Source: Flavobacterium inviolabile
GTDB taxonomy: Bacteria > Bacteroidota > Bacteroidia > Flavobacteriales > Flavobacteriaceae
Length of the DNA stretch: 64,000 nt
Reading direction: 5' to 3'
Assembly: GCF_013389455.1 (NCBI RefSeq)
Contig: NZ_CP058278.1
Coordinates: 992,001 to 1,056,000 of the forward strand
Below, one piece after another: positions 22,108 through 48,538 of the stretch. Both the position numbers and the translations under genes were made by a program. The notes beneath the pieces are model-generated. The model searched no databases. It had not been told where the DNA came from and worked only from the letters and a program-made list of their open reading frames with translations. Numbering within the stretch: position 1 is the stretch's first letter; the number at the start of each line of letters is the position of its first letter.

Positions 22108-25100
22108 ATGTATATCCCTAAGCGTTTATTTATTTTAGTATTTACACTATTTACAGCGTTTGTTTTTGGACAACAGGAAGAAACTTTGGGCACGATTAGT
22201 TCGGGTAGCCAGTTGCATAGCCTACCTATGCTACAGATTACCGATCCGAAGTATGCCTCTTTGAATCAGCAGAATGTGCTGACTTCTATTGATCCTGCTG
22301 TATATATTCATTTTGGTTTCAAGGATCTTGCAAGTGATCTAACGGCTTATCAGGCGCAATATTCTTGTGAGGTGAAATTGAGAGTTGTACCCTATAACAA
22401 CCAAAATGGAACTTTGGCACCTTATGCTGTCAAGTTGAGAATTGTGCACGATAACCTAACCGAAAATGTAAAATTCGACGATTATTCGATTTATAAGTTG
22501 CCGGGCATCCATAAAGCGGATGTAGCGGTAGATGAAGTCGTGTATAGAGATTTATCGGGACAAATTATTCCTACCGTTACTAATTCTACAGCGTTCCTTC
22601 AGCTTCGTTTTAAAACGGACCGCTATTACAATATCAAAAATACAACGGTGAATCCGGTTTCCAGAAGACTTATTAAGTACAATGGTTTGACGGAAATGGT
22701 GGTTAACAATGTAAGTGACGGTGCCGAAGAACTGGAAATCAACTGGACACGTTATATCGATGCGCCAGCGACAGAATATGAACTGGAATGGACCTGGGTG
22801 GATAACTATGGGCCAAACGGAAATAAATTGATGCCCAATCAGATTGCTTTAACAGAGCAGGATTTTAAACTGAATAGTACAAGAATACAAACCAAAGAAT
22901 TAAAATATAGAATTCCATTGGTATTCTCAAAGGGGTATTTGGTATACCGGGTAAGACCGGTAGGACGATTCCTGGACGATACGAAAAAGAGTTATTACGG
23001 AACCTGGTCTTCTGGATTGGCGGGTAACTTTCAAAATGTAGGTAACTGGGGGACTTTCCTGGAAATTGATGCCGATCATGAAGTAGGTAAAAAGAACTGG
23101 CAATACCAGGCTTCTTTTGCCGAAGATGGTAAGAAAAAAGAAGTGGTAAGTTATTTCGATGGTACGTTGCGTAATCGTCAAACGGTTACTAAAACCAATA
23201 CGAATAATAAAGCCGTTGTTGGAGAATCGGTTTATGATAATCAGGGACGTGTTGCTGTTGAAGTGTTGCCAACACCTATCGAAGCTTCCGGTATTCGCTA
23301 TTACAGGGACTTAAATAAAAATGATAACAATCAGGTTTATACCCATCATGATTTCGACTGGGATCGACTGAATGGATTAATCTGTGAGCCGATATTGCCG
23401 CCGGGAATGTCAAAAAGTTCCGGAGCCAGTAAATATTATTCGGAACAAAGTGCACCTGTAGCAAACTATCAGGATTTTGTGCCAAATGCGAATAAATATC
23501 CTTTTTCTCAGATTGAATATACGCCGGATAATACCGGAAGAATCCGAAGAAAAGGTGGTGTAGGACAAGAACTTCAATTGGGTACCGGTCACGAGATGAG
23601 CTATTTTTACCTGCAACCGGACCAGGAAGAATTAAACCGACTTTTTGGATATAAAGTAGGAGATTTCAAACGTTATAAAAAGAATATAGTTGTCGATCCG
23701 AACAAACAGGTTAGTGTTAGTTATCTGGACCCTCAGGGAAGAACGATTGCTACAGCACTGGCTGGTGACAACCGGAAAGACGAGCCAATGATGTCGTTAG
23801 AGGATGAAACCAATAACGCATTACACGAAATGACAACAACCAATATGATGTCGAATAACGATGCCTATACTACCGGAATAAACGGGATATTACAGGATGG
23901 CGTACGATTAAATAGTCAGGTGGGAGTTGTGAAGGAAGAAGCGTTAACTCTTAACTATGGTTTGACGCATGCTACGAATACCTATAACGACTACTGTATG
24001 GGTGGCAAATACTATCCTTTTGTGTTTGACTGGAAGATGAGTCTTTTGGACGATTGTGGTAATGACATGCTGGTTGATTCGAATGGGGGTGGAATCGCTC
24101 AGATAGGAATGATAAATCTGAATTCCTATACACCGAATGCGCCAGCGATTTCATTCAATAAAAGTTTAACATCCAGTGTGTTGAAAATCGGATCGTATAC
24201 TTTAAATAAGGATATCCGCGTGAATCAGGTTGCTGTCGAGCAATATGCAGACGATTATATCGCACAAATAAGACAGTCAAGCAATCCGTGTTTTCCGAGT
24301 TTAGCAGGTTCTACAATCGATATTAGCGAAGAAGACTGTCATGTGACGTGTAGAAGTTGTGAGGAAGCACTGATTTGTAGTTATTTAGCACTACAGACAT
24401 GTCAGTCATTTAGAATGACCTTCCCTGCCGGCACAGATGAAAGTGTATTGGGAGATGTTGGGAATAGAGAATATTACGTTTTATTGGCAGAACAAAAATA
24501 TGTAATCGATAACCTGAACAGCAATTTTGCCGGAAGTTGGTTTGTCTATAACGGATCACTATATGTGGATCAGAACGGACTTATTTCACAGTATCTAATC
24601 AATTCCTATGTAGTTCGTTTTAAAAAGGAGTTTAGAGGATTATTAGAGGGTTGTAGAGAATTGTGTATACAGCCGGGCGATACCTGTAATATCAATACGA
24701 GCATGTTACTGTCGGATGTTAGTCCGCACGGTCAATACGGATCCATTGCAGGAATCGATTTTCCAACGGCGCAACCAGGTGGAATAAACGCGCCTGCTGG
24801 TAATGTTGACGATACCCTAAGTTTGTTTAATGAAAACAATCAATTGTTATATGGCGGTTCTTCTGTTCAGACGTTTATCGATTTGGATACCGGATTAACC
24901 GTTACACAAAATGTATCGAACTATAACTGGAGACGACCGGCTACGCCATATATGGATGATAATGGTGATTTTGCGAAGGTAAAAGTCGAAAGAATTAATT
25001 ACAATACTTATATCCCTGAAATTATGCCTTCGGCGAGTGTCGAAGATGATCCATTGGATCCGACTTCATCCAATAAATATGTGCGCCCGCAATATTTAAG

Positions 25101-28100
25101 AAATGTAACCGACTTTGTTAATAACTGGCAAGCAAGCTGGGCGGAATCGTTACTACCTTACCACCCGGAATACCAGTATCTGAAATACAATAAAGCCATT
25201 TGTGCCAAAACAAATTCGGCTGGTGATAACTCCGATAGCTTTGACGAGAAACTTAAAAATACCGATTATACCAATGTCTTTACGACAAATGGATTGGTTC
25301 AGAATTTAATTGCCCTTTCAGCTAATGATCCTTTCTATAACGGACAAATTACAGCGACGCCATCATCGGGGATTAACTACGATGCCGAAACTACGAATGA
25401 TTTTAGTCTGAGAAAAAATTTATTGCTGGAAGCGATGAATACGAATTACGAAGGTATTAAATTGGCGAATAACGCCCGATTAAATATGCTTCAGACAGCT
25501 TATTATACCACTGTCTTCGGTAATGGAATTGCACCGGCTTCTACTTATCAAAGTTTGGTGACCACTCCGGTTAACCAATTACTTCCAATTCTTAATGCGC
25601 TGAATCCAACGGAAAAAGAGCGTGTTTGGAAGAGCTTTATGAACAACTATATCGCGTTTAAACAAAAAACAAGAACGGTATTCTCTCATATTTATGCTTT
25701 ACGTAATAGTGGGTATAACGGTTGTATCGGCGACGTACAGAACGTTGATACTTTTGTAACGCTGTTCGAAAAATATAATACAACAGGTAATTATAGTAAC
25801 CTGTTACAACGAATCAACCAGGCTTTTGCAACTCCGGTTCCGACAACGCCTGCCGGTACGATACTAGCTTGTTCGACTACTACCGTTGGATACTATAAAA
25901 ACAAAGAAAAACGATTTATATCGGCCGATTATGGCTTTAACTCCGGTGTTCCGGGAGCACAGGCCATTGCCGATGCTACTGCCGATGCCGATGCAAATAC
26001 CTATTACCAAACTGGAAAATGTCCATTATTATTAGACACCGAAAGTTTGTTAAAAGGATTGATCAATCCTTCTTTCCAGAATCAGGGATTATTGCTGTAC
26101 GGTTTTAATGCCTATAGTATGCCGATGCTAACACCGGATTTATTTAATTCGGTATTGTTAGACCCGACTGCTTATGCAGCAAACCCACAAAATGTGACTA
26201 TTAATGGAAGTGTTGTAAATGGAGGTGCAAGTTTGAACCTTACGTTTAATACGGCTAGTGGTAGTATTGCAGAGCCAATCGAACTTAAGATTCTAACACA
26301 GTCTTTATCTATAGGGTACTATATGAATGGTTGTAACGAAACGGTACCAGCTCCTACATGGACGACCTATAATACAAACTTTAAGATTGTTGATTTCAAG
26401 AATATTTATTATGTACCGGGATCGTTTAATCCGTTAAACAATACGTATAAATTCCAGATTGTTGCGGTTCTAAAACGACTTACGGGAACAAGTTGCCCGG
26501 CGTTAGAAGAGGTGGTTCTTGAAGGAACGATTAAAGCAGCTATCGGACAATGTAGTTTTGGGGATGCAGCTGGTGAAACAGGTGAAAATTGCGACAAACG
26601 AGTGCGCTTTGAAAAAGCATTGGTACGCGTTATGAATGCGTTAAAAGGAACGAATCCAAATATTCCGGGACAATTGTTTACGTCTGGGATAGCATTAAAA
26701 GGAGCTCCGAATGATAATTATACCTATGGTAGCAGTGTTATGCCGGAGGTGTTAAATGATCTTGCCTTAAATTCGTCTTGGTCGTGTAGTCCGAATACCA
26801 GTTTTACCGTTAACGGTCCAAGTCCGTTTACGATTTATAATCTGGTGAACGAATTTGGAAATCCATCTTTCCTTCCGGGAACTTTTTATAGAGTAACGGG
26901 AATAAAGATTGAGAAAAATATGGTGAATGGTGTTGTAAGTGGAGATGATAAAATAACAATCAGTTATCTGGATCTGAAAGATCAGGTGTTTACCCTAAAT
27001 GGACGTATCACACCATTAAATTATAGTTGTATCTGTACGGAAGAAGTTTCTCAGACAGAAGCTATAGGAGCGAACTTCTTAAACCTGACGAATCATCTTT
27101 GGAGCGCAGGAGGTCCTATTTCACATGGCTTTTTAGATGGATATAATCCTGTTCAGATGCAGGCTGTAGCTCCATATATTGCTGGAAATAATCCAACGGT
27201 AAATCAATATGCGACACACTGGTCGGATGGACTATCGACTTATGATGGTATCAAGTTTAATTTCTTTTCGGGTTCTCAGGAATGTCAGTTTATGTTGCCA
27301 CTTTATGCTTATCCGGGAAGAGGTTCTACTACGACGAATTATGCTTCACAGATTACACATTTCTCGAATTTTAAAATACTTGAAAATTTAGGTAATAATA
27401 CGTATGCTTTTAGTGTTTTTGTTCACCATGGTTCTTATAGAGTTAGTAGTGGCCGATTTAATATGGTCTATCCGGCTGGAATTCAGGAGGCTCGTGGCAC
27501 GATAAGCTGCCTTCAGCAAACGTTCTGTGAAGAGGAATTCGGGGTTACGAATGCACTGACATCCGTGTTAAAGGATCTTATACAGCAGCAAACAGTAGCC
27601 GACGGTGCTACTGCCAATGGATTACCGGCTTTAAATACGTATGTTCAGTTATCTGGAGCGGCTCCGTCAGCCAGTATCAATAACTTTTACAAAGTAGAAA
27701 ATACGGCCAGTTCTCAAATTGGATTTACGTTTGCCAAAGAATCGGAATGTGAGGTAGTGTTTACGGTACCGGGTGTTTCATTTGCAAATGTTACGAATAT
27801 TTCGGGATTGTCATTTACCAATACACAATCGGGTAATTTTACGGCTACGGTTACCACCAATACAGGGGCGCAAATTATTGCCAACGGTACTAGTAAATGT
27901 ATCACTGCACGAAAATGTAATGCTGTAATTCAGGTGCCTTGTACCTCTTGTATACCGCCAGCAGTTGCTCCGTCGGTTTGTGTGCAAAAATGGCTGGAGT
28001 TTCGCGATATTATGGACATCGTACAAGGTTATCAAATGCCGGATCATCTGGCTCAAGATGCGAAATATTTCTGTGAAGCTAACTTAGGATATCTGGTTAC

Positions 28101-31100
28101 AGATTATATCCATTATTTGAATATAACGGGAGCTTACGATGTTAGTATGCCGAGCTTTATAACGATAAGTGAATTTGGAGCAACCAAATTGAATTATGGT
28201 TATAATGGTACACAAATGGTTATCAATGCCTATGCAGCGTATTTGCCGACGCATCCTTCTGTTACATGGAGTGAGTTCGTAGACCTGTATATGACGGAAA
28301 ATAAAATTTGTCCTCCGGCACCAATGGTTCCGACCATCGATATGCAAGTAGATAATATTCCTACTGCTTGTGAGATTTTTGTAAACTCGGTACAACAGAC
28401 TTATATACAAGAATTAAGAGAGGAATATTTTATTGCAAAACGAGAAGAATTTAAACAAAAATATATTCAGGCCGCTATCAACGGGTTACAAGAATCGTTG
28501 AATAAAGTGTCTTATGATAAAGAATACCAGTATACTTTATACTATTATGATCAGGCAGGAAACTTAGTACAAACGGTTCCGCCTCAGGGGGTATCCCGAT
28601 TAACACCGGCTACCGACAGTACGATTAATGAGATTAGAAATATATTCCCTAACGAAGAACAAGGGATGGTGAATGGTCTTGTTGTCGATCCAAATCACAC
28701 GATGAAAACGCTATATCGTTATAACTCGTTGAATCAGTTGGTATGGCAGCAAACACCGGATGGTGGTGAAACGCGATTTGCATATGATCAGTTAGGGCGT
28801 ATTATTGCCTCGCAAAATGCAAAACAGGCGGCGATGCCGAAACCAAGATTCAGTTATACACGATATGATGGTCTGGGACGAATTGTGGAAGCTGGGGAAT
28901 ATATTCCTGGACAAGCGTATATTAACGATGAAGGGAATGTTATGATAGGAGGTTCTCCGGTAAGTGATCTGGGAACACACGATTATACCCGCTATGAGGT
29001 GACGCGAACACTTTATGATACTCCGGTTGCGAATAGTACCAGTTGGTTTGAATCGTATTCCGGAAACAATAATCACAAAAGGGTTACGGCTGTATTAGTG
29101 TACAGTGTTCTGGATGAAGGGGTAGACCTGGATAGAATGGACATTATCGCGAACGACCGTTATGATAATGCGATTTTATATGATTATGATATCCACGGAA
29201 ACGTAAAAGAACTTATTTATCATACGAATAAAGAGATCTTAAAAGAATTAAATCAGGATGTCAAAAAAGTGATCTACGATTACGATCTGGTTAGTGGAAA
29301 CGTGAATAGTGTAACCTACCAACCTAAAAAAGCAGATCAGTTTATTCACCGTTATGAGTATGATGCGGATAACCGAATCACACAGGTTTATACCAGTAAG
29401 GATAAAATCGTTTGGGAAAAAGAAGCGAAGTACGACTATTACGAGCATGGACCTTTAGCACGTCTTGTTGTTGGAGATAAGCAGGTTCAGGGATTGGATT
29501 ACTTCTATACGCTTCAAGGTTGGTTAAAAGGAGTGAACTCAGAACGTCTAGGTACAATCACACTTAGAGGCGCCTTCACCAACTACGATATCGGTGGCGA
29601 TGGAGAGATTTTCAGTGGAGCCGCTAAAGATGCTTTTGGATTTGGATTGAATTATTTTAGAGGGGATTACCAGTCGAGACACCATGTTAACAATGGTGCG
29701 GATAATATGCCTTTAAGTTATAGTTTAACAAACGATCTTGAAAGAGATAGGAATTTGTATAACGGAAACATTAAAGAGATGGTTACTTCTTTAATGGATT
29801 TGAGGCAGACAAATTTATCATCGCAGTATAATTATTATTCATACGATCAGTTAAACAGAATTAAGGGTATGAATTCCCTTAATATTAATGATTTGTTAGG
29901 ATTGTTTACAGAGGAATCGTATCGATCGCAATATTCGTATGACAGAAATGGTAACTTATTGACATTAAATCGTTGGGCGCCTACCCAAAAAAATTCTGGA
30001 AGAAACCAGTTAATGGATGAATTAAGTTATACGTATCAGGATGGGACGAATAAGTTGACGCATATTAATGATACTGTTCCTAACGGAGCGTTTACCAATG
30101 ATCCGTCGAATCCGAATGATACTTCTCTGGATATTGATAATCAGGAGCGAGATAACTATCAGTACGATGAGATTGGTCAGTTGATCCGTGATGAAAAAGA
30201 AGGCTTGAATATTGTTTGGAGAGTCGATGGAAAAGTGAAAACGGTAAACAAAGCCAATGGAACCGTAATCGATTTCGAATATGACGGTTTAGGAAAAAGA
30301 ATTGCTAAAAGCGTTACCAAAGGAAGCAATGCAACGACTACTTTCTACCAACGCGATGCACAAGGAAATGTATTGAGTACCTATGAGATGGTGAAGAAAG
30401 CTGGGGAAGGGATTAGATATTACCTGGTGGAACAGGATATTTACGGAAGCAGTCGTCTTGGGGTTGAAAAAGGAAGAAAAGAGCTTAATGCAGAAAGTGG
30501 AAGAGGAATTGCGTTACGAATGGATGCGATGATTGCTTCGGCACAGATTGCAGATAATGTCTCGCAGGCTTTATTAACAACACCGTCTTCAATTTGGGGA
30601 TTATCGTTTAGTGGAAATAACAATGTTACTTGGGGCGATGGCGACAAGAGTATCAATTTCTTTGATCAATCTGGAGCGAAAACACAGGACTTTGAAATCA
30701 GAACGAATTTCAAAATTGTTGGAGGTTCAGCGATGACAGTAAATCAAAATCATGCGTTAGTAACTTTAGATGGTGCCAGAAGACCGGAATACAAGCAATG
30801 GGACAATAGTGTGGCACGTATCGTGATTAAGAGAAATGGCAATGGTGCTTATGTGCCGGCATTAGAAATTGAAAAGTATACGAAAAGGTTCCACCGTTAT
30901 AAACCGTTCTTTGTTTTCCACAGACGTTGGAATTATAGAAACTATAAAACCGTTTGGACGTATGAGTTGCGAAATGCGATACCGGAAACCGAATGGAATT
31001 TCCATGCGAAGGTATCGGTGAATGGCGATAATTTTAGTCCAGAGTTTACGATTAACGGAAATGTTTACACGTCGAGAGATTTTATCGGTAATGTAACGCA

Positions 31101-32019
31101 AGAGTTAAACGGACCGGAATCGGACGATTACAGAGATTTCCCGGAACCAAATGCGGTTTGGAATACTTTGGGTAAAACCACAAAAGAGTATGGAAATGTG
31201 GAAGGAAACAATCTTAGAAATTCTTTCCAGGGGGTTCCTGTTGAAATGTGTGATTTCACCTATACTGTGAATAATGGTCAAGGGTCGGATAATACACCGG
31301 TATATGTCTTTCCGTTTGATGAAGGACCGGTTGGGCAACCAACGGCAACCAACAATTTGTTGAGCATGACACGAAATGGAGTTCCGTATACACAATCGTA
31401 TTGTGGACCTACGGCATTAGATTCTGATGGTGACGGAATTCCGGATGCAGTGGATAACTGTCCGAATAAATTTAACCCGAATCAGAGTGATGTGGATGGC
31501 GATGGCGTTGGAGATGTTTGTGACAACTGTGTGTACACCTATAATCCAAACCAGGCTGATACAGATGGTGATGGTAGAGGAGATGTTTGTGACAACTGTA
31601 TCAATAATCCGAATTACAATCAGATTGATACGGATGGTGATGGAAGAGGTGATGCTTGTGACAATTGTAGAACAATTTACAACCCGGGTCAGGAAGATGC
31701 TGATGGCGATGGTATTGGAGATGTTTGTGAAGGATTGGATCAGGGGCAAGGTACATCTGCGGAAGTTGGAACACCGGTTACAGCCTATCGTTTTGTAGGA
31801 GATAAAAACTACGAATTGTCGAACCATTTAGGGAACGTTCTTTCTGTAGTGACCGACCGTAAATTGTTAGGAATTTATGGACGAGGACGACTGCTAATTC
31901 CAGACGTAGTTTCATACAATGATTACTATCCGTTTGGGATGCTGGTACCTAATCGCCACATGAAGCCTCAGAATCATATCGTTACGGGTTTAATGGAATG
32001 GAGATGGATAACGAGTTAA
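22108..32019 (+). CDS. Giant YD-repeat Rhs protein, frame broken at its C-terminal core
   Basis: 3303 codons with an N-terminal signal (ends near VFG). The first two-thirds are beta-rich, with Cys-containing segments and three copies of a module shared with the VWA gene. YD/Rhs repeats run about residues 2140-2755 (e.g. [32 protein letters not shown]). Thrombospondin type 3 Ca-binding repeats (about 3105-3205) precede the Rhs core [15 protein letters not shown] ... [12 protein letters not shown]. After His3284 two extra bases (31960-31961) shift the frame and the ORF stops 19 codons later. Removing them restores the core through [11 protein letters not shown]. Either a real frameshift or a consensus error. 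Such proteins encapsulate and deliver a variable C-terminal toxin. Confidence 0.85.
31423..31730 (+). repeat. Thrombospondin type 3 repeats within the Rhs gene
   Basis: Four tandem Asp/Asn/Cys-rich units of the form DxDGDGxGDxCDNC. They are calcium-binding spacers commonly placed near the C-termini of surface proteins. Here they sit between the YD repeats and the switching point of the tip. Confidence 0.85.
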
Positions 32020-32111
32020 AAGGCGGTGAAGGTGATAGTTATGACTTTGGAGCGAGGATGTATGACCCTAGAGTTAGTAGATGGTTTGCTCCTGATCCAT
32101 TAGAAAAAAAT
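31921..32111 (+). repeat. Rhs core junction, copy A (attached to the full Rhs gene)
   Basis: Encodes [12 protein letters not shown] then, after skipping 2 bp, the conserved core to [19 protein letters not shown]. It is the only copy joined to a complete upstream Rhs gene. It is best preserved and serves as the reference for copies B-E. Confidence 0.85.
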
Positions 32112-33589
32112 ACCAGATTTCTCATCATTAATTTTCGTTTTGAATAGTCCCTATCCTTTTTTTTGTTGATCCGGATGGAGAAGATCCAATTCGGCTATAT
32201 TTGAAAAAATTGTTGTTGCTTTTTTACTGGAAACCCATTATGGTTTAGATTTATGATAATATGGAATCGTTAATGCAGATAGAGTTTTTGATAAAATTAA
32301 AATGGAAAGCTGCTTGAAGGAGCTAAAGAACGGTTTACCTGCGTTTACTGGAGTTGCAAAAATTGAAAGGCTTAGAACGAAGATTGGTTCAAAAATCAAC
32401 TGTTGATAAAAAAGGTAAAAACAATTCCAAAAAAGTTTGAAAAATGGAACGTTACTGGATTTAAATGGTGATTTTAAAAAATTTTTAAAAAAGATGGAGG
32501 AACATTCAAAGTGGCTATGTTAGACCGTTTCCACAAGAACAAATGAATTGGTTTTTGTGATCGGGCATAATATAAAAATGTTGAAAAGATCTAAAGGAAC
32601 GGAAAATCACAAAAAGAAACTAGCGATCAATCCAAAATATCAAATTCGGAAGGGAAAAAGTAGGTATTGAAATGGAAAAAATGGTAGGTATTCCAAGAAC
32701 AATAAAACGGGGCAATTTATTAAAATTATCAAAAACACAAAAATAAAACTGGTGTTAATAAATTAATGAAGTAGCCCTATTGGCGCATCAAAAAGAGGTT
32801 ATGAAAGAATGTTTTTTTGAATTTGGCCAAAACGTTTGATTTTAAACGGAAAAAAATCGAAAAAACTAGGTAAAAAATTAATAAAAATGGCATTTTGATG
32901 ACAAGTATTGATTTACGTTTTGCTTTTTTTTTAACTATGGATAACCTATTTCTACTTTAAATATTTTGGGTTTTATTTTTAGGATTATTAATTGCTTGAC
33001 TTTATTGACAGAGATTCGGTTTTGTTCAAATAAAACAAAATAAATTCCATAAAGATAAAGGAGTTTTTTTTTAGGTTTTATTTAATGTCATAAAAAATCA
33101 GTTATAGCTTTTTATAAATAATCTATTTCTATCCGTTTAAATAAATAAATTTTCGCGAATTCTCAATAGAGACTTTTTTTAACTTAAATGTTTAATAACT
33201 TTGAAATTTTATTGTCACAGATTTATTTGGGAAAACATCATTTATGCAAAGGATCAATATTTGTTCTGTCCTTTATATAAAAAAATCAAGCAAATTTCTG
33301 GCCCCGATTGTTTTGACAAATATTATTTTAAAAAAATTGATTTTAAAATTGGTAAAAAATAAAATTAGTTCTATTTTGAGACTAACCTTTTTTTTATAAT
33401 ATTCTATATAAAAATGGTATTTTTTTTAATATAATAAAATATAATTGTAAACAAATAAGGTGTCGCAATTATAGACTTCAATTCTTTTGAAGCGTAATCT
33501 TTTTTTTAAAAACTAAATGCAATGATTCAATCGAATTATATGATTTTCAATAATCCACTTTTGAAAAAATGGATTCATTTATTTTTTAA
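32112..33589 (+). pseudogene. Rhs toxin tip and immunity segment A, disrupted
   Basis: Follows copy A. A short readable PxxFVDPDGEDPI piece marks the normal start of an Rhs tip. After that every frame is interrupted. It shares stretches such as GGTGTCGCAATTATAGAC and TTCAATAATCCACTTTTGAA with the inverted segment at 40230-41841, so the two are diverged or corrupted copies of the same toxin/immunity pair. Toxin activity cannot be named. Confidence 0.55.
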
Positions 33590-33623
33590 AAAATCCCAAC
33601 CATAATCGTTGGGATTTTTTTTA
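33590..33623 (+). terminator. Hairpin terminator after tip A
   Basis: AATCCCAAC and GTTGGGATT form a 9-bp stem followed by a T-run. It would end the tip A/immunity transcript and marks where segment A meets the opposing segment B. Confidence 0.65.
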
Positions 33624-33639
33624 TTGCGCCTGTTATTTT

Positions 33640-34800
33640 TTTAAATCCCCATGTTTAAATTCATTAACTTTTATCAGATATTTTGCTCATTTTATTATAT
33701 ATAAAACATTCAAATATATAGGCTTTTTTTAAAGAAGAAAATCCGTTTTTAAATTTCAAAAAAAACTCCAACTGAATACGATTTTTTTCTAATGTAAAAA
33801 ACTTCTTAAACATTTTTATAAGCGTCCATTATTACAACAATTAGAATCAATTATCGTAGCTATAATTTCTTTTTTTTGATGGAATAATAATGTTGAAAGT
33901 TGATTTGTCTTTAAGACATTCTCGAAATAAATCAATGGAAAACTAAAAAAGAAATTGCTAAAAAAAACCTATTGTTTTTTTCGTTATCGCTTTAAATAAT
34001 AAAAATCGCAATACTAATAAGTGTTATTTTATTTGATCCATTTTTTTTGTAATCTTTTTTTTTTCGTTTTTTTTTTTTTTGCTTCACCAGGTCTGGCCAA
34101 AATCAAAATGTTTTTGAACCATCATACAGACCGTTTGTTTTCCATTTGTAAATTCCCATTCATGTTTTTGGATTACCAATTTATCTCCTTTAATTTTCCC
34201 GACTATTATTTTCCTATTTTACCCCTTTTTTTTGATCTTTTTTTGGATAATTTAGCCTTATTTGATCCTTTTTCATTTGATGTTGGGCTTTCCTATTAAA
34301 ATCAGATTCATCAATTTTAGGCCCCTTTCGACAATGCAATTGCAAGATGTTTCCATGTTAAACAGATTTCATAACTATAGCCAGTCTTTAAAGGCTTTCG
34401 CCATCTTTTAACAATTTCAAATCACCTTAACAATTATTCTCTTCCCCAATCCTAAATTACTTCATAAAAGTTTATTCTTTTTGCAAATTATTTGGATTTT
34501 TAAAAACTTTTCCATCTGCATTTTCAAAATGTTTTTTGAAAAATCCTCTTGGATCGTCCTGAAAAAACTCCTTATTTCTTTGGTTAACAAAAATATCGAA
34601 TTTTACCATTTGGCATAACAATTCCAAAATCTTTTATTCCCAAATATCATCCATATTGATTTAAATCTGCCATACATTTAATGGAAATTTTTGAAATCAT
34701 TACCATCTTTAACAAAATAAACGCGTCTTCCATCCCATTCCAATCATGCATTTGTAGGGCTATTCAAACAAAAAATGTATGGTGACCATCCCGTATATTT
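33640..34800 (-). pseudogene. Rhs toxin tip and immunity segment B, disrupted
   Basis: Reads leftwards from core copy B. Broken frames share pieces with segment D on the other strand (ACGGTCTGTAT followed by TTCAAAAACATTT, and a 24-bp stretch around TTGCTAAAAAAAACCTATTG). Poly-T runs on the plus strand dominate. The 92-codon frame at 34021-34299 on the plus strand is an artefact of these runs. Toxin type not recognised. Confidence 0.5.
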
Positions 34801-34989
34801 TTTTTTCTAATGGATCAGGAGCAAACCATCTACTAACTCTAGGGTCATACATCCTATTCTCCAAATCATAACTATCCCTTCACCGCCTTTTAACTCGTTA
34901 TCCATCTCCATTCCATTAAACCCGTAACGATATGATTCTGAGGCTTCATGTCGGTTAGGTACCAGCATCCCAAACGGATAGTAATCATT
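34801..34989 (-). repeat. Rhs core junction, copy B (inverted)
   Basis: Reverse complement of copy A with several single-base indels (for example in the stretch encoding DSYDFGARM). It carries the CGACATGAAGCC version of the NRHEA codons, which keeps the frame there. Confidence 0.85.
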
Positions 34990-35149
34990 TTATGTAATTC
35001 TGAAAATAATTTCAATCAGTAATTAATTGAGATATTAATATTTTTTGATAAAAATGCTGATTATGGTAAAAAAAGGCCTTTAAAAATGTACTGATTTCAA
35101 AGCAATTATAGTCTAAAAAGAACGTAATTATGGGTTAAAATTTAATTTA

Positions 35150-35815
35150 AAGATAGGAGAACGTATTACAAATAGTTTCCATTTGAAAATTTAACAAGTA
35201 AAACCGTGTTCGAAAATAAATTCCGTTTTTTAATCATTACAAACATTGTTTTTTGTTTTTTTGTTGATCGTCAAAATTGGATAAACTAGAATTACAATAT
35301 AAAAACTACTGGAAAAATAGCCCTAAAATTTAAAGTTTTTTATACAATGTTAGGCTTTTTTTTGATGGCTTTAACATGACTAAAGAATTGAAAAAAAAAA
35401 AGGTGATTCGGAATTTTTTTAATTCCCGAAAAAAAAAAAAGTTTTAGATAGTTTATATGTTGTTTGCAACAGGAAGGCGCTTCCGAAATACAAAAATTGA
35501 AGCGATTACCCGTGATTTGATCGCCAAAAAAAGGAGTTCGAAGCTTTTAACCAGAATTTGCCACTGAAGAATCGGCTAAAATCTGGTCCAGAATTAATGG
35601 TTATACGACCGGTTTTTTCAAAAGATAAAAAACTACGACTTTATCTTAGGATCCGAAAACAAACGATCTGTCCTTTTTTTTGCTAAAAATAAAAACTTTA
35701 GAAAAACTAACGAAAATGATCATCTATATTAAAAAAAAATACGAAGGCAATCAATAGTCTTTAGCTAGATTAAACTCCCGGATTCCTTTATTGATTAATA
35801 AACATTTTGGAAATT
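35150..35815 (+). pseudogene. Tyrosine recombinase fragment (N-terminal and middle part)
   Basis: Recognised by similarity to the recombinase on the opposite strand. Both contain TCAAAATTGxATAAAC-AGAATTACAAT and, later, GATCCGAAAACAAA followed by a TTTTTTTGCT stretch. The copy ends near 35815, before the catalytic HxxR region, facing the 3' end of the other copy. Frames are broken. It is a partial inverted duplicate of the integrase. Confidence 0.55.
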
Positions 35816-35834
35816 AAAAAAAATGTGCATTACT

Positions 35835-36906
35835 TTGCATACTATTTTCCAGCTTTAGATGTACTTTTTAATTTCTTTGTCAATAAATACCTGAAACATA
35901 GTGTAATAGCGATTTTACGAACCGCTGGCATGACTATGTCCGCTTATTTTTCGAACCAGATGTTCCGGCATACCTAAAATAAGTAATGTTGTAATTGCTG
36001 TTCTCCGCATCATATGAGAACTCATTTTTACCATCCATCTTTTCAGAAAAAAGCGATTAGCAGCCTTGTTGTTTTGTTTTGTCAGAACATTCCTTGCTTT
36101 TCCCGAAAAACAGAAGCTGTAAAATTGGCTAATTCACCTATTTGTTTGAGGCTTTTATTAAAAGTTAAACAGACTTGTACTTCTAAATACCGGATTTTTT
36201 TACATTTCTAGACTGATAATTTTGGTTAAATCAATAAAGCGTAAGCCGGGAGTTTGATATGGCTAAAGGTTTTGGTTTTCTTCGATTTTAGTTTTAAATA
36301 CCAGTCATTTTCTACTTTTTTCAAAGTTTTTTTCGTCAGCAAAAAAAATATCGGAGTTTTGTTTTCGGATCGTAATCCTTTTGTACATTGAAAAACAAAA
36401 ATATCTTTGATCCGACCATTATTTCCGATAAGTTATTTTCAAATTCTTTATCGTGAATCAGAAACTTTAACTCTCCGTTTTTTGAGACAAGACCAAGATT
36501 TCAATTTCTTTTTTGTTTTCGGACATAAAACCGTTGGAAATCGCCGGTAAAGAAATCTTTATTTTTAGGTAGTTAAAAAAAAGACCCGAATGACTTTAAT
36601 GTTAGAGCCGACATAATTGTCATGGCAGCCTTTTTTTTTGTATAAAAATCTGTAAATTTCTGATAGAATTTTTTTAGTAGTTTTTCTCCGATTGTAATTC
36701 TCGTTTATTCAATTTTGAGGCATCACAAATCCGTAATTCAAAACTGGTATCGATTAAAACTGAATCAAGTTTTGTAAAACATAATACTAATTTTTTCATG
36801 GAATCCGGTTTGATCCGTTCGCCGTTCTTTTTTAAACGTTTTAACCTGTTTCGGTCTTTTTATAAATTGTTTAAACAGTGAAGTTATAGGGGCCGTTTTT
36901 TTTCAT
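35835..36906 (-). pseudogene. Tyrosine-type site-specific recombinase, frame-disrupted
   Basis: The C-terminal catalytic region is readable on the minus strand around 35900-36060: HMMRRTAITTLLILGMPEHL then VRKISGHSHAS and, a few residues later, RYYTMFQ. It contains the Arg of the HxxR box, the late His (GHS) and a Tyr nucleophile candidate. An ATG at 36906 could be the start; about 355 codons, slightly short for flavobacterial integrases of roughly 400. Several frameshifts and A/T runs break the frame. It sits in the middle of the inverted Rhs tip array, as Rci sits beside a shufflon. Whether it is functional depends on whether the indels are real. Confidence 0.7.
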
Positions 36907-36990
36907 GGTAATTTTTCTCCAAAAAATATTAATTCTCAATGGAAAATAAGCACTGATTGCTAATATATTTCGTCAAAAATCCGTTATATT

Positions 36991-37170
36991 CCTATCCGTT
37001 TGGGATGCTGGTACCTAATCGCCACGAAGCCTCAGAATCATATCGTTACGGGTTTACGGAATGGAGATGGATAACGAGTTAAAAGGCGGTGAAGGAAATG
37101 GAATTAACTTGACAAAAGATTCTATGATCCCTAGAATTGGCCGATTCTTTCTATTGATCCATTAGAAAAA
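36991..37170 (+). repeat. Rhs core junction, copy C
   Basis: Begins TATCCGTTTGGGATGCTGG and carries the CGCCACGAAGCC version of the NRHEA codons (in frame). A base is lost in the FNGMEM stretch, and it diverges after GGCGGTGAAGG. Confidence 0.85.
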
Positions 37171-38038
37171 AAACCCATGGTATCTCCTTATCAGTTTGCG
37201 GGGAATACTCCTATTCAGGCAATTGATTTGGATGGCGCAGAGGAATATCACTACACTTTAAAAAAAATCGTTAAAGGAAAAACTCATTTTATATTGACAA
37301 ATACAAAATAAAAGTTTAATCATGTTGTATTACTGTGGGGATTAATTGATCGATATTATAAAATTCCAGTAAAAAAAAATATTTGGTTACTCATGAAAAA
37401 AAAAAAAGGAAATACTATATCGGTTTCTGCGGGTTACTTATGGAAGTGGTAATCAAGATAAAGCTGAGCTCTTCGAACTTTTTTTAGAGATTCGGAATCT
37501 CACTGGACTTTAAATGATTTTAAAGAGTCTTTCAATTCTGAAGGCCAATCAAATAATATGGCAATGGCTCAGACGGCTGTTAATCTTCAGAATAACACTC
37601 TTATGTACGGGCCTATTAATGGAAAAGCCTGGTATACTCGAGGGATTATCAAAGAGGAAACTCACAGATAAATAGCAGACATTATTTAAGTTCTGATGCT
37701 ATTGCAAAAGCCAAAAAAACAGCCCCTGCGACTATGGCTCCTAGAGCAATTTTAGACGCGGATATTGAGGCTTATAATACCGGAGATTTCAAAATTAAAA
37801 GGAGGTGACGTTTTGATTAATGGTCGAACTTATAGCACTAAGAACGAAGGAAAAACACTTTATCCGAAAAGATGGCGGTGCCAAAGAATTCATTTTAAAC
37901 GTAAGTCAAGGTCAAATTAAAGCAATCCAACTAATTAAAACAGTTCCTCGTGAAAGACTGGATGCTGCAGTAAAATATTCTAAAATTTCAAATGAAGATT
38001 ATAAATTTGCCCAAGACTTTGTTAAAAAAAAATATTAA
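37171..38038 (+). pseudogene. Rhs toxin tip C, disrupted
   Basis: The best readable tip. It opens with SPYQFAGNTPIQAIDLDGAE, the normal Rhs core-to-toxin boundary, and has a readable middle (AMAQTAVNLQNNTLMYGPIN). It ends in an open 72-codon frame (37820-38038) whose final part reads VSQGQIKAIQLIKTVPRERL then a basic KYSKISNEDYKFAQDFVKKKY-like tail. Several indels separate the blocks. A GPINGK piece recurs in segment E, so C and E tips are related. Fold and activity are not recognised. Confidence 0.55.
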
Positions 38039-38040
38039 TC

Positions 38041-38577
38041 ATGGCGATTCTAGTTTGTTACTATAAGAAGAAATAAGAATTGATAGGATATTAAATGCTT
38101 TGGCTACCATATTTAATACATCCAAAAAATCGAATAAATGAACTGAAAAATTTTGATGAATCTGCTACAATTAATTTTGAGATAACACAGCTTAATGTGA
38201 TTCGTGCAATTTTAATTTTCAATTAGAGGTCTTCCTTTTAAAAGAAAATATTTTATCAGCGGAAATATATAATAACTTACTGTTGGTTATTGAACTAAAA
38301 AAAAAAATAATTGGTCTGGATTTTTCATTACATGATTTTTTAAACCCATATAGTTGGTTACTATTAAAAGATCATAAATTATTTTTAAACAAGATTCTGA
38401 TTTTGATGATGGAATTGATATTAACACTAATAATCAAATGGAATTGGATATGAAAAAAAGTATTGAATATATTACCTCAAAAAAAAAGATATATTAAATA
38501 ATTCTTTTGAAGTTCCATATTTTTTTAAGGACTCAAATTCATGGATAAAATGCTCTATATAGATTGAATAGAACAAT
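38041..38577 (+). pseudogene. Putative immunity gene of tip C, disrupted
   Basis: Starts three bases after the tip C stop with an ATG. Broken frames hold acidic, Leu-rich pieces (LLKDHKLFL, DFDDGIDINTNNQMELDMKK) typical in composition of immunity proteins. The position directly after the toxin tip is the main argument. No domain recognised. Confidence 0.4.
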
Positions 38578-38612
38578 CCAGTAAATTGCATTCAATTTTA
38601 AATGTTCAAAAC

Positions 38613-38648
38613 AAAAAAACCTAACTTTTAAAAATTTAGGTTTTTTTA
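38613..38648 (+). terminator. Intrinsic terminator after tip C unit
   Basis: AACCTAA and TTAGGTT pair around a short A/T loop, followed by a T-run. It ends the tip C/immunity transcript. Confidence 0.65.
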
Positions 38649-38994
38649 TTTTCCATCCCTAACTGATTTTTTTTTTTTTTTTCTTGAAGAAATATTACAA
38701 AAAACCTTTCTTAAAACAATTTATAAAAATCGATATCGAAAAATAAGTAAATTTCTATCAGAAGAAAATCATTTTTTGAAAAAAGTTAAATAAGAAGTCC
38801 TCTAATTATTTGTAAAGAGCCTATATTTGAATCGAATTTCACCTCATTATTACGTTCATTTTTTCCATAATTGCAATCAAAATCATCCCGTTTTTTTTTT
38901 TTGAGGTGTTTTTTTTACTCTGATTAGTATTTTTAAAAAAGTTTTAAATTCCATTTAAATTACTGTAAATTACTTAATTACATAAATATAATTT
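38649..38994. other. AT-rich spacer without recognisable gene
   Basis: Poly-A and poly-T runs and no readable frame. It separates the tip C unit from core copy D. Confidence 0.4.
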
Positions 38995-39190
38995 CTATCC
39001 GTTTGGGATGCTGGTACCTAACCGACATGAAGCCTCAGAATCATATCGTTACGGGTTTAACGGAAAGGAAAAAGACGATGAGTTTAAAAGGTGGCGAAGG
39101 GAATCATATCGCTTTTTTTTTTTTTCAGAAAGAGGCTATGATCCACGTTTAGTAGATGGTTTATCACTATTGATCCTATCGCAAAAAAAA
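38995..39190 (+). repeat. Rhs core junction, copy D
   Basis: Contains the intact reading [20 protein letters not shown], which shows the correct frame of the core. It diverges to KEKDDEFK instead of MEMDNELK, so it is a different allele of the core rather than an identical copy. A T-run replaces part of the segment before RGYDPRLVDG. Confidence 0.85.
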
Positions 39191-40210
39191 ATCAGTATCC
39201 TTCTCAAAGTCCATTTGCCTTTGCATAAACAGCCCTATTGAACTTATTGATGTACTTGGAATGGGACCTGGTGACCCGAAAAAAAATCATTTTTGTTAAA
39301 GATGATAATTTGACAAAAATTTCCAAGAAATATGGCGTTTCCATTGATGATATAGTAAAATGAATGGAATTGTAGACAAAAATAAACTTTTTAACGATTG
39401 GTCAGAATTTGATAACAATTAACCCTGAGGCTGATTTTTTTGTTAATCCAAGAGGAGGTTATCAAAATCTTTTTAATGCAGATGGAAAGGAAGTTTTTCA
39501 AATAATATTGCAAGTGTTGGTTTTGACTAACTTTGTATTAGGATTGGGCGAAAGAAACTTAATTGTTATCGGAGGTGATTTGAAAAAAAAATCTGTTCAA
39601 AACTGGAAGGTCGTAAAAGGCCTTTTTATAAAGAACATCATCAATGGAAATGGTAGATGAAATTATTAACGATGGAAAAGTCAATCCTGGAGAAATAGCC
39701 TATAGAAATTTTAGACCAGGAAATCTTCCGTCCAATGTAAAAAAAACGGGACTCAAAGAGGCTTTTGAAAGATTAAAAAGGAGAAAAATGGAAAGATAAT
39801 AGTCAAAATAGTCCAATACATGTTCTCGGATCATTTAACATGTCTATACGGGTAAATGCAAATGGAACAACAGCAACGGTCTGTATTTATGATTCAAAAA
39901 CATTTAAATCATTTATTCTGAGGTAATGCTGGTGAAGAAAAAAAAAAAAAAAGAAAAGATTCAAAATATAAATTTTTAACTAATACTTATCAGTAATTTA
40001 AATGGAACGTAAACATTCCAAAAAAAACAATAGGTTTTTTTTAGCAATTCTCTTTTAAAAACGGGCTATTTTGAATTTCATACAGAATATCAAAAAAAAA
40101 AATAATGGGAAATATTCTGATTCAAAAACAGGAGAATATGGACGTAAATGTTTTTACTTTTTTTAATCGGATGAGATCTATTCAGTTATAGTTGAGGATT
40201 GTAAAACAGT
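39191..40210 (+). pseudogene. Rhs toxin tip D with LysM-like start, disrupted
   Basis: The first readable block, DDNLTKISKKYGVSIDDIVK followed by MNGIVDKNKL, looks like a LysM peptidoglycan-binding motif placed at the head of the toxin. Later blocks read NPRGGYQNLFNADGKEVFQ and SFNMSIRVNANGTTATVC then IYDSKTFKSF. Frames are broken between blocks. Related to segment B on the other strand. The toxin activity is unknown; a cell-wall-directed role is only suggested by the LysM-like motif. Confidence 0.5.
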
Positions 40211-40229
40211 CTATTAATTAATCAAGAAA

Positions 40230-41841
40230 AAAAAAAAATTTGAAGGTTTTTTAATAATAGTAATGATAAATATTATAAAAAAAAAACATTATTGATGGGG
40301 ATAATAAAAAAAACCTAACAGGCGCAATAAAAAAAAAGAGACGATTACTAAGGCTTGACTTTTAAAATTGAAAAAAAAAAGGATCCATCTTTTTCAAAAG
40401 TGGATTATTGAAAATACATTTTATCCATTGAATCGCATTTAGTTCTTAAAAAATTGGAACTTTAAAAGATTTAGTCTATAATTGCGACACCTTTTTTGAT
40501 CCTGTTTACAATTATAATTTTATTATATGGTAGTCCATTTTTTTAAGTTAATATTCCATCAAAAAAAATCAGTCTTGTTCAAAATAAGACTAACCTTTTT
40601 TTCTTTTAATAGTAACCAATTTTCCATCTGTTTTTTTTTAATAAGGTATTTGTGAAAAAAATCCAGGGCCAAAATTATTTTATACAGGTCAATAACAAAC
40701 ATTGATCCTTCTGCTGGTAAATTTCCGTGTTTTCCCAAATAAATTTTCAATAAAGATAGCAAAGCATAAACCCTAAGTTAAAAAAAATGAGAATCACTAA
40801 AGGTTTATTTTTTAATAATAAAATTAATTTAAAGCATAAGAAAAAAAAAAAGCACTTTTAAAGTTCAACCATTTTTTAACAACCTCCAAAAATATGGTCC
40901 ATAAGCATTTAATATCCTGCTCCAATAATATTTCTTTGCTTTATAAGAAACAAAACCGAATCGCCAAAAGTAATCAATTTTTTTTAACAAGCATTAAAAG
41001 GGTCAATACTATTTCTTTTTGAAATTTTAAATATAAATCAAAATCGTAGAATCTTACTTGTCATCGTGTTTATTTTTATTAATTCTTTACCTAGTTTTAC
41101 TTTTTTTGATCTTCATAACGTTTAAAATTTTTTACCTCCACTTTTCAAAACATTTTTTTCATAACCTTCGTTCTCTGATGCGCAATAGGGCTACCATTAA
41201 TTTATTAACACCAGCAATTTTTTTTTGTTAAATCACCTCGATAATTTTAATAAATTCCTGAACTTTTGATTGTTCAAATTCTACCATTTTATAATCCATA
41301 TCAATACCTACTTTTTTTGCCCTTCGAATGATTGAACTTAAATTTGTCGTCGGTATTTATCTGGTAAGTTTTCCGTCATCCAATAGATCTTTTGCATTTT
41401 TTTTTTTTCCATTAATAGGCCCAAAAAAGTCATTTCCTTCTTGAAGGAATCAGTCTACTTTACGACATTGAGAAAATTTGATTCCATCAGAATTTCTGTA
41501 CCTTTAAAATCATTTAAATCCAGTAACGATTCTGCAGCTCCAAACCATTTGGAATTGATTCCTTTTTTTGATTACTGCACTTGTTTTGAACCCAAACGTA
41601 TATAGTATTTGGTTTTAAACCGTTCTATAAGCAAATCAGCTTTTTTTGTTGTACTATTTTATAAAAAATCTGCTGCATTAATGCTTATTATCATAAATTC
41701 CTGCTGTACCATACCATTGTTTGGTTTTAATTTGTAATATAAAACGAGTTTTTTTTTAACGATAAGTAAACTGGTTCTTCCATCAGCCATCAACAAAAAA
41801 ATAGGACTATTTCCCATCGATGAATAAGATGACCAATGGGG
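40230..41841 (-). pseudogene. Rhs toxin tip and immunity segment E, disrupted
   Basis: Reads leftwards from core copy E. Starts with a YPHWSSYSSMGNSPIFL-like boundary. Further blocks include KWFGAAESLLDLNDFKGTEI and KKVGIDMDYKMVEFEQSKVQ. A 67-codon open frame at 40559-40762 lies in the distal, possibly immunity, part. It shares many short stretches with segment A in inverted orientation and a GPINGK piece with tip C. No named toxin family recognised. Confidence 0.5.
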
Positions 41842-42028
41842 TATTTTTTTCTAATGGATCAGGAGCAAACCATCTACTAACTCTAGGGTCATACATCCTT
41901 TGCTCCAAAGTCATAACTATCACCTTCACCGCCTTTTAACTCGTTATCCATCTCCATTCCATTAAACCCGTAACGATATGATTCTGAGGCTTCATGATTA
42001 GGTACCCAGCATCCCAAACGGATAGGAA
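41842..42028 (-). repeat. Rhs core junction, copy E (inverted)
   Basis: Reverse complement of copy A with an extra G in the CTGGTACC stretch, a 4-base loss at the NRHE codons and an extra base in the FGAR stretch. It marks the right-hand end of the array. Confidence 0.85.
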
Positions 42029-42239
42029 TTATAGTAGTATAAAAATCTTATTAATAATAACTTACAGGTTTGTGTAAAATTTAAAAATTGCCTATTATGG
42101 TGAAAAACGACCCTTTTTTAACGCTGAAAAAGATACAGGCTTAGGGTTGAATTTAACTAAATTTTTTAAAAAAGAATCGTACAAAAAGGTTTTTTCTGGT
42201 TTTTGAAAAAGTACTATATTGCGACGATTAAAAAAATAA

Positions 42240-43022
42240 TTGAATCCCTTGAAAACAAAGACTTTATTTCGTTTTTTTTGCATATCCTTAGTAGTAATAT
42301 TCTTTTCTTTTACAGATCCGTATCTGATAAAGCGCGTTTCCGATGCGAACTTCCGCTATGAATTCTATGTAACGGATAAAAAAGTAAAACCCAAATCGGA
42401 AAAAACCTACTATTGGTTTAAAGGCGGAACCATACATAATGCACAAGGCGGTACAGCTGGTGAATTGCTGGATGATGCCTTTACTAAAATGTACCACAGC
42501 AACCAACTGGCAGAACAGGGGCAATTTGAAAAAGGACTAAAGATAGGTTTGTGGAAAACCTGGTATCCGAACGGAACATTGGAAACAACTCAATACTGGA
42601 GCAGTGGTCTGAAAACGGGAAACTTTTACCGCTATGATGATAAAGGAGTGCTGATTGAAAAAGGATATTATAAAAGCCATATCAAACACGGGGAGTGGAT
42701 TGACCATATCAAAAAAGATACTACCGTTTATAAAAACGGAAAAGTATTTGTGGCGCCTCCTAAGTTGACTAAAGAAGAAAAAGCAAAAGTAAAAGAAGAC
42801 GAAAAAGTAGCAAAAGCTGCTAAAAAAGCTCAGGAGAAACTGGACAAAGAGAAAAAAGCCCTTGAGAAAGAAAATAAGAAAAAGCAAAAAGAGCTGGACA
42901 AACAACAAAAGGCGAATCAGCCACAAAGAGTGAACCAGCCACAGGAACAAAAAGAAAGTTTCTTTAAAAGGCTGTTTAAGAAAAAAGAACCAAAAGAGAA
43001 CACGAATGGTAAAGGCGCATAG
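42240..43022 (+). CDS. YwqK/MORN-like repeat protein
   Basis: A 260-aa protein with an N-terminal hydrophobic segment (about residues 9-25). Residues 95-155 hold MORN/YwqK-type repeats (GLKIGLWKTWYPNGTLETT, GLKTGNFYRYDDKG, HGEWIDH), followed by a highly charged Lys/Glu coiled-coil tail ending FKRLFKKKE. The only nearby start is TTG at 42240. The 3' end overlaps the next gene by 17 bp, so it may be the first gene of the filament operon rather than part of the Rhs array. The first 30 bp abut the corrupted region, so the true start could lie upstream. Confidence 0.7.
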   Translation: MNPLKTKTLFRFFCISLVVIFFSFTDPYLIKRVSDANFRYEFYVTDKKVKPKSEKTYYWFKGGTIHNAQGGTAGELLDDAFTKMYHSNQLAEQGQFEKGLKIGLWKTWYPNGTLETTQYWSSGLKTGNFYRYDDKGVLIEKGYYKSHIKHGEWIDHIKKDTTVYKNGKVFVAPPKLTKEEKAKVKEDEKVAKAAKKAQEKLDKEKKALEKENKKKQKELDKQQKANQPQRVNQPQEQKESFFKRLFKKKEPKENTNGKGA

Positions 43023-44542: not shown

Positions 44543-45020
44543 AACACAATTACAGGCCTTTTCAATGATAGAGGCCATTGTGGGTATGGCCATTACAGCA
44601 ATTATCATGAGTCTGATATTTGTTGTTTTTTCTATTGTCACCGAAAGACTGCTGGATTTTAAAAACCAGAACCAGCCGGTAAACGATCTGAACCGCCTGA
44701 CGTATTCGGTTAATAAAGATATTTTCGAAAATGATAAAATGCAGATCCGGCAGGAAGAACTTGTTTTTACCGGATATTCGGGAGAACTGGTCAGATATAG
44801 CGTTCAGGAAGACTATGCTTTACGCACCAAAGGCGAGTTTGTTGACACGTTTAAAATTCAGATAAAAGAAATGGTTATGGATTCTGTCTTTAGTCGCTCG
44901 AAACGATTAGCCTTCCGGAAACTGAAAATGAAGCTGGAAGTCAGCGAAAAAGAAATGGGGCTGAATTTTTATAAGCAGATTTATGCTAACGAACTATTAC
45001 AAGCAATACAGGAGAAATGA
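44535..45020 (+). CDS. Minor pseudopilin, GspJ/PilW-like
   Basis: A prepilin of about 161 aa from a GTG at 44535; a TTG at 44505 adds 10 residues. The leader ends QLQA, followed by FSMIEAIVGMAITAIIMSLI, with the +5 Glu and helix of pseudopilins. The globular part (VFTGYSGELVRYSV) is like GspJ in length and layout. The end overlaps the gspF-like start as ATGA. Confidence 0.7.
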   Translation: MNKTQLQAFSMIEAIVGMAITAIIMSLIFVVFSIVTERLLDFKNQNQPVNDLNRLTYSVNKDIFENDKMQIRQEELVFTGYSGELVRYSVQEDYALRTKGEFVDTFKIQIKEMVMDSVFSRSKRLAFRKLKMKLEVSEKEMGLNFYKQIYANELLQAIQEK

Positions 45021-46138: not shown

Positions 46139-46159
46139 GAATCATCTCATTAATGTTTG

Positions 46160-46167
46160 TATTTTTG
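46160..46167 (+). promoter_or_regulatory. Internal promoter before the major pseudopilin gene
   Basis: TATTTTTG matches the Bacteroidota -7 box and sits in the only gap (72 bp) inside the operon. It would allow extra expression of the major pseudopilin from a start near 46174. No clear -33. Confidence 0.45.
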
Positions 46168-46210
46168 CCGCCGTTAATTAACACTTTTTAATAAATAAAA
46201 TAGTATAAAG

Positions 46211-46645: not shown

Positions 46646-46646
46646 C

Positions 46647-48535: not shown

Positions 48536-48538
48536 GAA

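Follow-up and report, generated by a model that had tools for sequence, protein, structure and literature searches.

A putative site-specific inversion system acting on the C-terminal toxin of a very long Rhs protein in Flavobacterium

Known targets of gene-altering programmed inversions are surface proteins, restriction specificity, and phage tail genes. Such inversions, including invertible surface loci of Bacteroides, are reportedly the subject of work by Milman et al. (2023, NAR). In the Rci shufflon of R64/ColIb-P9, the constant start of pilV is followed by alternative 3′ ends with sites between them, and a tyrosine recombinase encoded with the array carries out the inversion, according to the parts of the account considered here (PMC3414803). 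Polymorphic toxins of the Rhs and contact-dependent growth inhibition (CDI) type have an Rhs-associated core, polymorphic C-terminal toxins, and standalone cassettes, and the portions of the survey on which we draw mention XerC/D-type recombinases beside polyimmunity loci (Zhang et al. 2012, PMC3482391). Here we describe an Rhs locus in a 64,000-nucleotide stretch of the Flavobacterium inviolabile chromosome (hereafter the window; C1:992001-1056000 of a single-contig 3.91-Mb genome). In it, an open reading frame (ORF) for a 3303-aa Rhs protein (22108-32019, plus strand) runs into a stretch of approximately 10 kb with five core junctions. Handles beginning with G, C, and L denote genomes, contigs, and loci.

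We conclude that this locus very probably exchanges the C-terminal toxin (tip) of the Rhs protein by site-specific inversion, as a shufflon in the wider sense of the word. An inversion switch of the Rhs tip had been proposed in a preliminary description of the window, and this proposal is supported by intact loci in many relatives and by the presence of both orientations in one assembly, that of G133. In such loci, one constant body gene ends where the Rhs-associated core begins, in a short DNA site. Spare tips start with the same site, in the same frame, and lie opposed to the body (some in the same direction) across a dedicated tyrosine recombinase gene. In the proposed mechanism, recombination between the body site and an opposed orphan site would then flip the intervening DNA and fuse another tip in frame, with the previous tip and its neighbour gene retained. 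We infer that the linked recombinase acts at this site and performs the inversion, and presumably only the tip joined to the body is produced.

Anatomy of the locus in relatives and evidence for inversion

In relatives, the long Rhs gene is accompanied by an intact recombinase gene and by one or more orphan tips of approximately 300-350 aa. Downstream of the Rhs gene, a junction that leads into an intact orphan tip lies inverted, 4.3-4.6 kb away, in G136, G183, G157, G112, G038, and G133, and 9 kb away in G054. The orphan junctions of two G170 loci have the same direction, at 8-9 kb, and in one of these loci another site, 20 kb from the body, is opposed. Clean multi-tip arrays are present in G353 (five junctions), G256 (five), and G273 (four on each of two contigs), and Flavobacterium supellecticarium has six sites spread over four contigs, along with the body, an intact recombinase gene, and the downstream gene seen in the window. 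Alternative 3′ ends in both orientations together with one constant start are found in the window and in G353, G256, G273, and F. supellecticarium.

Inversion between opposed sites within a population is found in G133. The first 42,293 and the last ~42,340 bases of its contig are one sequence that reaches both contig ends, evidently an untrimmed circle. Within this overlap, the segment of 4,558 bp that separates the two junctions has opposite orientations in the two copies (99.9% identity), and different tips are attached to the Rhs body at the two contig ends. The occurrence of both isomers in one assembly suggests that exchange is frequent.

Joins in three other genomes agree with this result. 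In G256, the exact 127 bases that start one tip of the array contig also terminate both the body contig and the orphan-flank contig, and neither of these overlaps the other end of the array contig. The terminal tip of the G317 body contig is the tip joined to the orphan flank on another contig, and in F. supellecticarium one tip terminates both the body contig (126 of 127 bases identical) and the flank contig (127 of 127). Unless a further tip has the same first ~127 bases, no single fixed order gives these joins, and they point to both orientations. The second contig of G233, considered as an alternative isomer, was dropped as a circular-looking extra copy with a head-to-head join.

The enzyme matches the tyrosine recombinase family PF00589 (Phage_integrase, E 7e-12 and 5e-13, above cut-off). 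Residues R183, K210, H296, R299, H322, and Y332 are invariant in 33 aligned rows, although the rows were picked by a motif covering H296-R299, making those two partly built in; the alignment was assembled without G240, G159, G092, and the window's own copy. We take these residues to be the catalytic R-K-HxxR-H-Y set. No NCBIfam cut-off was reached by the recombinase, and comparison with the PDB returned weak Int chains alone (best E 0.0025).

A search of the genus (E 1e-40) matched the recombinase in 29 of 398 genomes. Full-length matches of at least 61% identity account for 26, and the remaining three are the damaged gene of the window itself, a G159 fragment, and a distant homologue from G092. 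Counting the 26 and the window's own, the switch would be carried by ~7% of the sampled genus genomes. An order-wide search (E 1e-80) matched nine of 395 genomes, three already counted, and the new ones include another genus (G554) and another family (G404). A phylum-wide search (E 1e-60) matched five of 395, three already counted and two distant (36-40%). Beyond the first genus search, the matches add four genomes from the genus itself, one from another genus, and one from another family, and F. supellecticarium and F. humi also carry the recombinase. The relatives counted below are the 34 with the enzyme at 61% identity or more (26 + 4 genus genomes, G554, G404, F. supellecticarium, and F. 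humi). On the contig of the recombinase, each of the 34 has a core junction no more than 10 kb away, and by our count opposed junctions flank the gene within ~15 kb in 28, including G521, whose second junction is a site at a contig end.

One alternative is that the recombinase mainly inserts and excises tip cassettes, as in an integron, with inversion as one of its products. This is partly compatible with an inversion switch, and we regard it as a possible but rather unlikely account of the main activity. Such a platform would fit the runs of same-direction orphan tips in G256, G353, and G273, the two same-direction orphan tips beside a distant recombinase in another family (36-37% identity; L154 in G809), and the separate circular-looking records with such sites (G233 C2 and NZ_CP109997.1), whereas the opposed junctions that flank the enzyme in 28 of 34 relatives and the clean inversion that relates the two G133 isomers argue for inversion.

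The two circular-looking records have features of their own. G233 C2 (L129; 11,289 bp) contains the invertible segment of C1 once more, joined head to head ~0.1 kb into one tip, and may be an assembly artefact or an excised circle. NZ_CP109997.1 (L150), a 26,892-bp "plasmid" of Flavobacterium sp. N1861, holds a recombinase gene, two Rhs junctions spelled like those of G233, and secretion genes, and may be a chromosomal piece circularised in assembly.

Other observations concern the recombinase and its surroundings. Distant homologues (36-37%) adjoin orphan Rhs tips of another junction type, SPCVGIRTCSDYSPFGVELDG, at L112:78-3076 (G092, the same genus) and L154:4324-10376 (G809, another family), and a third (G885, 40%) has no junction of this type within 20 kb. 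Internal inverted repeats occur by the recombinase in five loci. In G183 the repeat duplicates part of the recombinase 3′ end in inverted orientation next to the gene (L043:15112-15338 and 16219-16446); elsewhere the repeats are terminator-like or of other kinds.

The junction site and the tips it joins

A short common site, for which the preliminary description had recommended a search, was found at each junction. The body site reads GATTACTATCC[T/G]TTTGG plus the bases after it and lies at the start of the Rhs-associated core. Expressed junctions (n=25) agree at GAtTACTATCCTTTTGGaAtgcT and orphan junctions (n=49) at CTTTtGGaA, where capitals mark agreement of at least 90% and small letters at least 70%. 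The FG motif of the site is in the frame of the tip at the 74 junctions with full context on the contig. In the Rhs proteins of G136 and G133, Rhs_assc_core scores above cut-off and begins at the site. Because the Rhs core domain of G136 starts at residue 331, with the Asp of the site at approximately residue 330, nearly the whole Rhs core would travel with the tip.

The spelling of the site is conserved at silent positions near the recombinase. Among sites matching GAYTAYTAYCCNTTYGGN, where linked sites are those within 15 kb of the recombinase, the TACTAT spelling of the two Tyr codons is found at 44/46 linked versus 12/45 unlinked sites. With one vote per genome and spelling, the counts are 22/24 versus 8/26 (Fisher p 1e-5, uncorrected for kinship). 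Eight sites on other contigs of recombinase genomes, all TACTAT, were set aside from this test. In addition, the spelling between the site and YRYGF, compared for pairs of equal length only, has a mean identity of 0.888 for the 85 within-locus pairs (minimum 0.60) and 0.569 for the 1837 between-locus pairs (maximum 0.93).

A second Rhs locus of the F. inviolabile genome (L052, C1:1051000-1070500), ~31-45 kb downstream of the array, has two same-direction tips and ends in a 1.4-kb direct repeat (94%). Its site is spelled differently, with no recombinase match nearby. It looks like a product of ordinary tip displacement and serves as an internal control.

Such displacement offers another explanation for the whole family of loci, in which old tips pile up, RecA-type recombination at the repeated core exchanges or inverts them, and the recombinase is a bystander. 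Junctions within a locus often have tens of bases to >100 bp in common, as this would require, and L052 exemplifies same-direction orphan tips that occur with no recombinase. Nevertheless, we consider displacement very improbable as the general explanation, because all 34 counted recombinases adjoin a core junction, the two junctions of G112 (L045) have merely 17 unbroken bases in common at the site, the silent TACTAT spelling goes with linkage to the recombinase, and exchange appears frequent in G133.

The DNA brought into the Rhs gene by inversion would encode a different toxin. We read 78 junctions in 36 fetched loci, a few of which overlap. Tips are complete at 75 junctions, and 74 of the 75 are at least 280 aa; spare tips are mostly 290-350 aa. 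When 30 intact tips of relatives (from 77 listed) were scanned against Pfam, five passed the cut-off, as N-acetylmuramidase, phage lysozyme, CdiA-type tRNase, WHH/colicin DNase, and AHH nuclease, which by family act on bacterial walls or nucleic acids. With YD repeats, an Rhs-associated core, and a variable tip with toxin domains, these proteins have the parts of Rhs polymorphic toxins. A small gene follows every tip in G136 and G133, with no function recognised in the two scanned. We presume that the small genes behind tips are immunity genes.

The array in the F. inviolabile window

The five core junctions that the preliminary description had listed (order +,-,+,+,-), with only the first on a full Rhs gene, are borne out by a shared site. 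All five have TATCCGTTTGGGATGCTGG in common, starting at 31927 (+), 34980 (-), 36993 (+), 38996 (+), and 42024 (-), and only junction A continues the full Rhs frame. A tyrosine recombinase in the array centre, also noted earlier, was recovered between junctions B and C; its minus-strand match spans ~36915-35864 and changes frame along the way (tblastn E 4e-41). One piece of it (35918-36133) scores slightly under the Phage_integrase cut-off (E 8e-6; 26.2 bits versus 27.1). The arms of ~3.05 kb, earlier described as inverted copies, are indeed inverted homologues (interior identity 0.545 versus 0.35-0.43 in 12 block shuffles), but a near-identical inverted repeat is rejected because they are merely ~68% identical. 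Tips A and E agree at 68% over 1.7 kb, and tips B and D at 68-82% in blocks and 89% at the junction end.

The constant Rhs body (22108..31958, +), the part of the 3303-aa ORF up to the junction, has YD repeats (27.3 bits versus a cut-off of 15.8), DUF6443 (E 4.6e-12), and a start that by eye resembles a signal peptide. Its named relatives, among four loci, are in F. supellecticarium (84%) and F. humi (45%). Junction A (31921..32053, +) comprises the site GATTACTATCCGTTTGGGATGCT and the first part of the Rhs-associated core. Past the site, its spelling resembles a mixture of two spellings found at the other copies, and by our count this merged-looking spelling is at the same codon as the single body/flank difference of F. 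supellecticarium. Junctions A and E have 95 bp in common at 100% identity.

The remaining segments are as follows. Tip A with its presumed immunity region (31990..33590, +; end approximate) was placed by homology to E, and tip B with its presumed immunity region (33600..34876, -; limits approximate) by homology blocks to D; the frames of both are broken. Junction B (34877..34989, -) precedes the recombinase gene (35864..36915, -), which was aligned with the intact F. supellecticarium gene C15:825-1862. Junction C (36988..37110, +) leads into tip C (37111..38640, +; limits approximate), in which 37219-37644 resembles the intact WHH/colicin-type nuclease tip of G383 (tblastn E 1.2e-13); this homology is the sole link between the window's tips and a toxin. 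Junction D (38991..39114, +) leads into tip D (39115..40434, +; limits approximate), which has a LysM-like piece slightly under cut-off at 39229-39360. Tip E (40435..41901, -; limits approximate) and junction E (41902..42028, -) form the outer end of the array; junctions B, C, and D were recognised by the shared junction sequence, and the orphan flank and next gene beyond E align with F. supellecticarium C7.

The first gene 3′ of the array (42240..43022, +) aligns at the DNA level with F. supellecticarium, and by eye a similar gene follows the array in G136, G133, and F. supellecticarium. Farther 3′, at 45017-50452, are genes resembling those of type II secretion and type IV pili (T2SSF, leader peptidase, T2SSE, and secretin). 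ORFs that by eye are prepilin-like and T2SSF-like also follow the array in G136 and F. supellecticarium. It may be that the secretion-like genes behind the array export the Rhs protein.

A consensus of low quality is coextensive with the array (31958..42300), as seen in homopolymer runs and frame-breaking gaps. From the Rhs end to 42240 there is no stop-to-stop frame >94 aa. Runs of at least seven equal bases occur at 9.2/kb in 31958-42030, compared with 0.65/kb in the rest of the window and 1.2-3.8/kb across 16 clean invertible segments of relatives. A T11/A11 pattern has 35 overlapping matches genome-wide, with 32 in the array stretch and 3 in one run elsewhere. The genome's only run of at least 11 A or T outside the array is 13 T long (G000:C1:2088339-2088351). 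In DNA alignments to F. supellecticarium, frame-breaking gaps number 21 in 1,006 aligned bases of the recombinase gene (21 per kb), 36 in 1,729 of the whole array centre (partly noncoding), 1 in 607 of the next downstream gene, and 0 in 3,933 of the Rhs body; a control pair of clean recombinase genes has 0 in 1,038. Identity is similar throughout, at 0.839 for the recombinase gene, 0.823 for the centre, and 0.850 for the Rhs body.

Because gaps are raised with no clear rise in substitutions, sequence error is the most likely cause of the window's broken frames; the consensus is defective within the array, where frames, lengths, and perhaps the order of copies are unreliable. Plausibly, the merging of reads from several arrangements spoiled the consensus, and mixed arrangements would explain why the defect ends at the array edges. 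A decayed relic or an assembly artefact, to which the lack of long open frames, the homopolymer-rich sequence, and the chance that the A/E and B/D homology is partly one segment assembled twice would point, is a very improbable explanation. Decay should raise substitutions along with gaps, for which reason the relic reading was rejected; moreover, F. supellecticarium has the body, sites, intact recombinase, and downstream gene, and G353 and G256 have clean five-junction arrays.

Several observations weigh against the conclusion that these loci, including that of the window, are inversion switches. As deposited, the recombinase and tips of the window have no open frame, and switching by this strain itself is presumed. 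The joins in G256, G317, and F. supellecticarium could also arise if another tip shared the same first ~127 bases, an escape that does not apply to the G133 pair. Crossover is bounded to the interval between the site and the first tip-specific base, and no finer. The 12 unlinked TACTAT sites, two of them in the G233 array, depart from the association with the recombinase, and both L047 and L052 have same-direction orphan tips with no recombinase nearby. Of the six relatives not counted among those with flanking opposed junctions, G024, G134, and F. supellecticarium (C15) have contigs whose shortness or one-sidedness prevents a judgement. In G383, the recombinase lies just outside the opposed pair, in G240 it is decayed and the two nearby sites have the same direction, and in G233 the opposed site is 29 kb off. 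Finally, 25 of the 30 scanned tips have no Pfam domain above cut-off.

Implications and relation to known systems

We think it likely, in a broader sense, that a dedicated lineage of Bacteroidota tyrosine recombinases shuffles Rhs toxin ends, with a site that forms part of the coding sequence where the Rhs core begins. Clonal cells would be stochastically armed with different antibacterial tips while all neighbour (immunity) genes are kept, forming a bet-hedged arsenal. A distant branch of the lineage (36-37%) would serve a second junction type (DYSPFGVELDG), which occurs in the same genus and also in a different family. That Rhs tips vary from strain to strain is known, and tip change has so far been ascribed to recombination with cassettes. 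Here the change looks programmed, and its frequency seems sufficient for one assembly to contain both states. If this is true, sister cells may carry different weapons, and within-clone diversity of antibacterial weapons would become directly testable. The switch may also explain why such loci break draft assemblies and spoil long-read consensus.

The programmed inversions said to be treated by Milman et al. are alike in using site-specific recombinases, also in Bacteroidota. The literature matches listed, from a collection that leaves out most subscription papers, Milman et al. 2023 among them, included nothing on inversion of Rhs tips.

With Rhs/CDI toxins and their orphan tips, the loci described here share the Rhs-associated core, polymorphic C-terminal toxins, and standalone toxin cassettes. 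In the portions of Zhang et al. (2012, PMC3482391) examined, from which the word "inversion" is absent, tips change via recombination with cassettes, whereas here a dedicated recombinase and opposed sites are present.

With the Rci shufflon, as given in the parts of its account used above, the loci have in common a constant start, several alternative 3′ ends with recombination sites, and a tyrosine recombinase encoded with the array. In contrast, the target here is an Rhs toxin rather than a pilus tip, the enzyme is usually encoded inside the invertible segment, and a small gene follows those spare ends that were read. By anatomy, enzyme and site sequences aside, the parts would work like those of a shufflon. 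We read these loci as a probable site-specific switch of the Rhs tip that resembles a shufflon.

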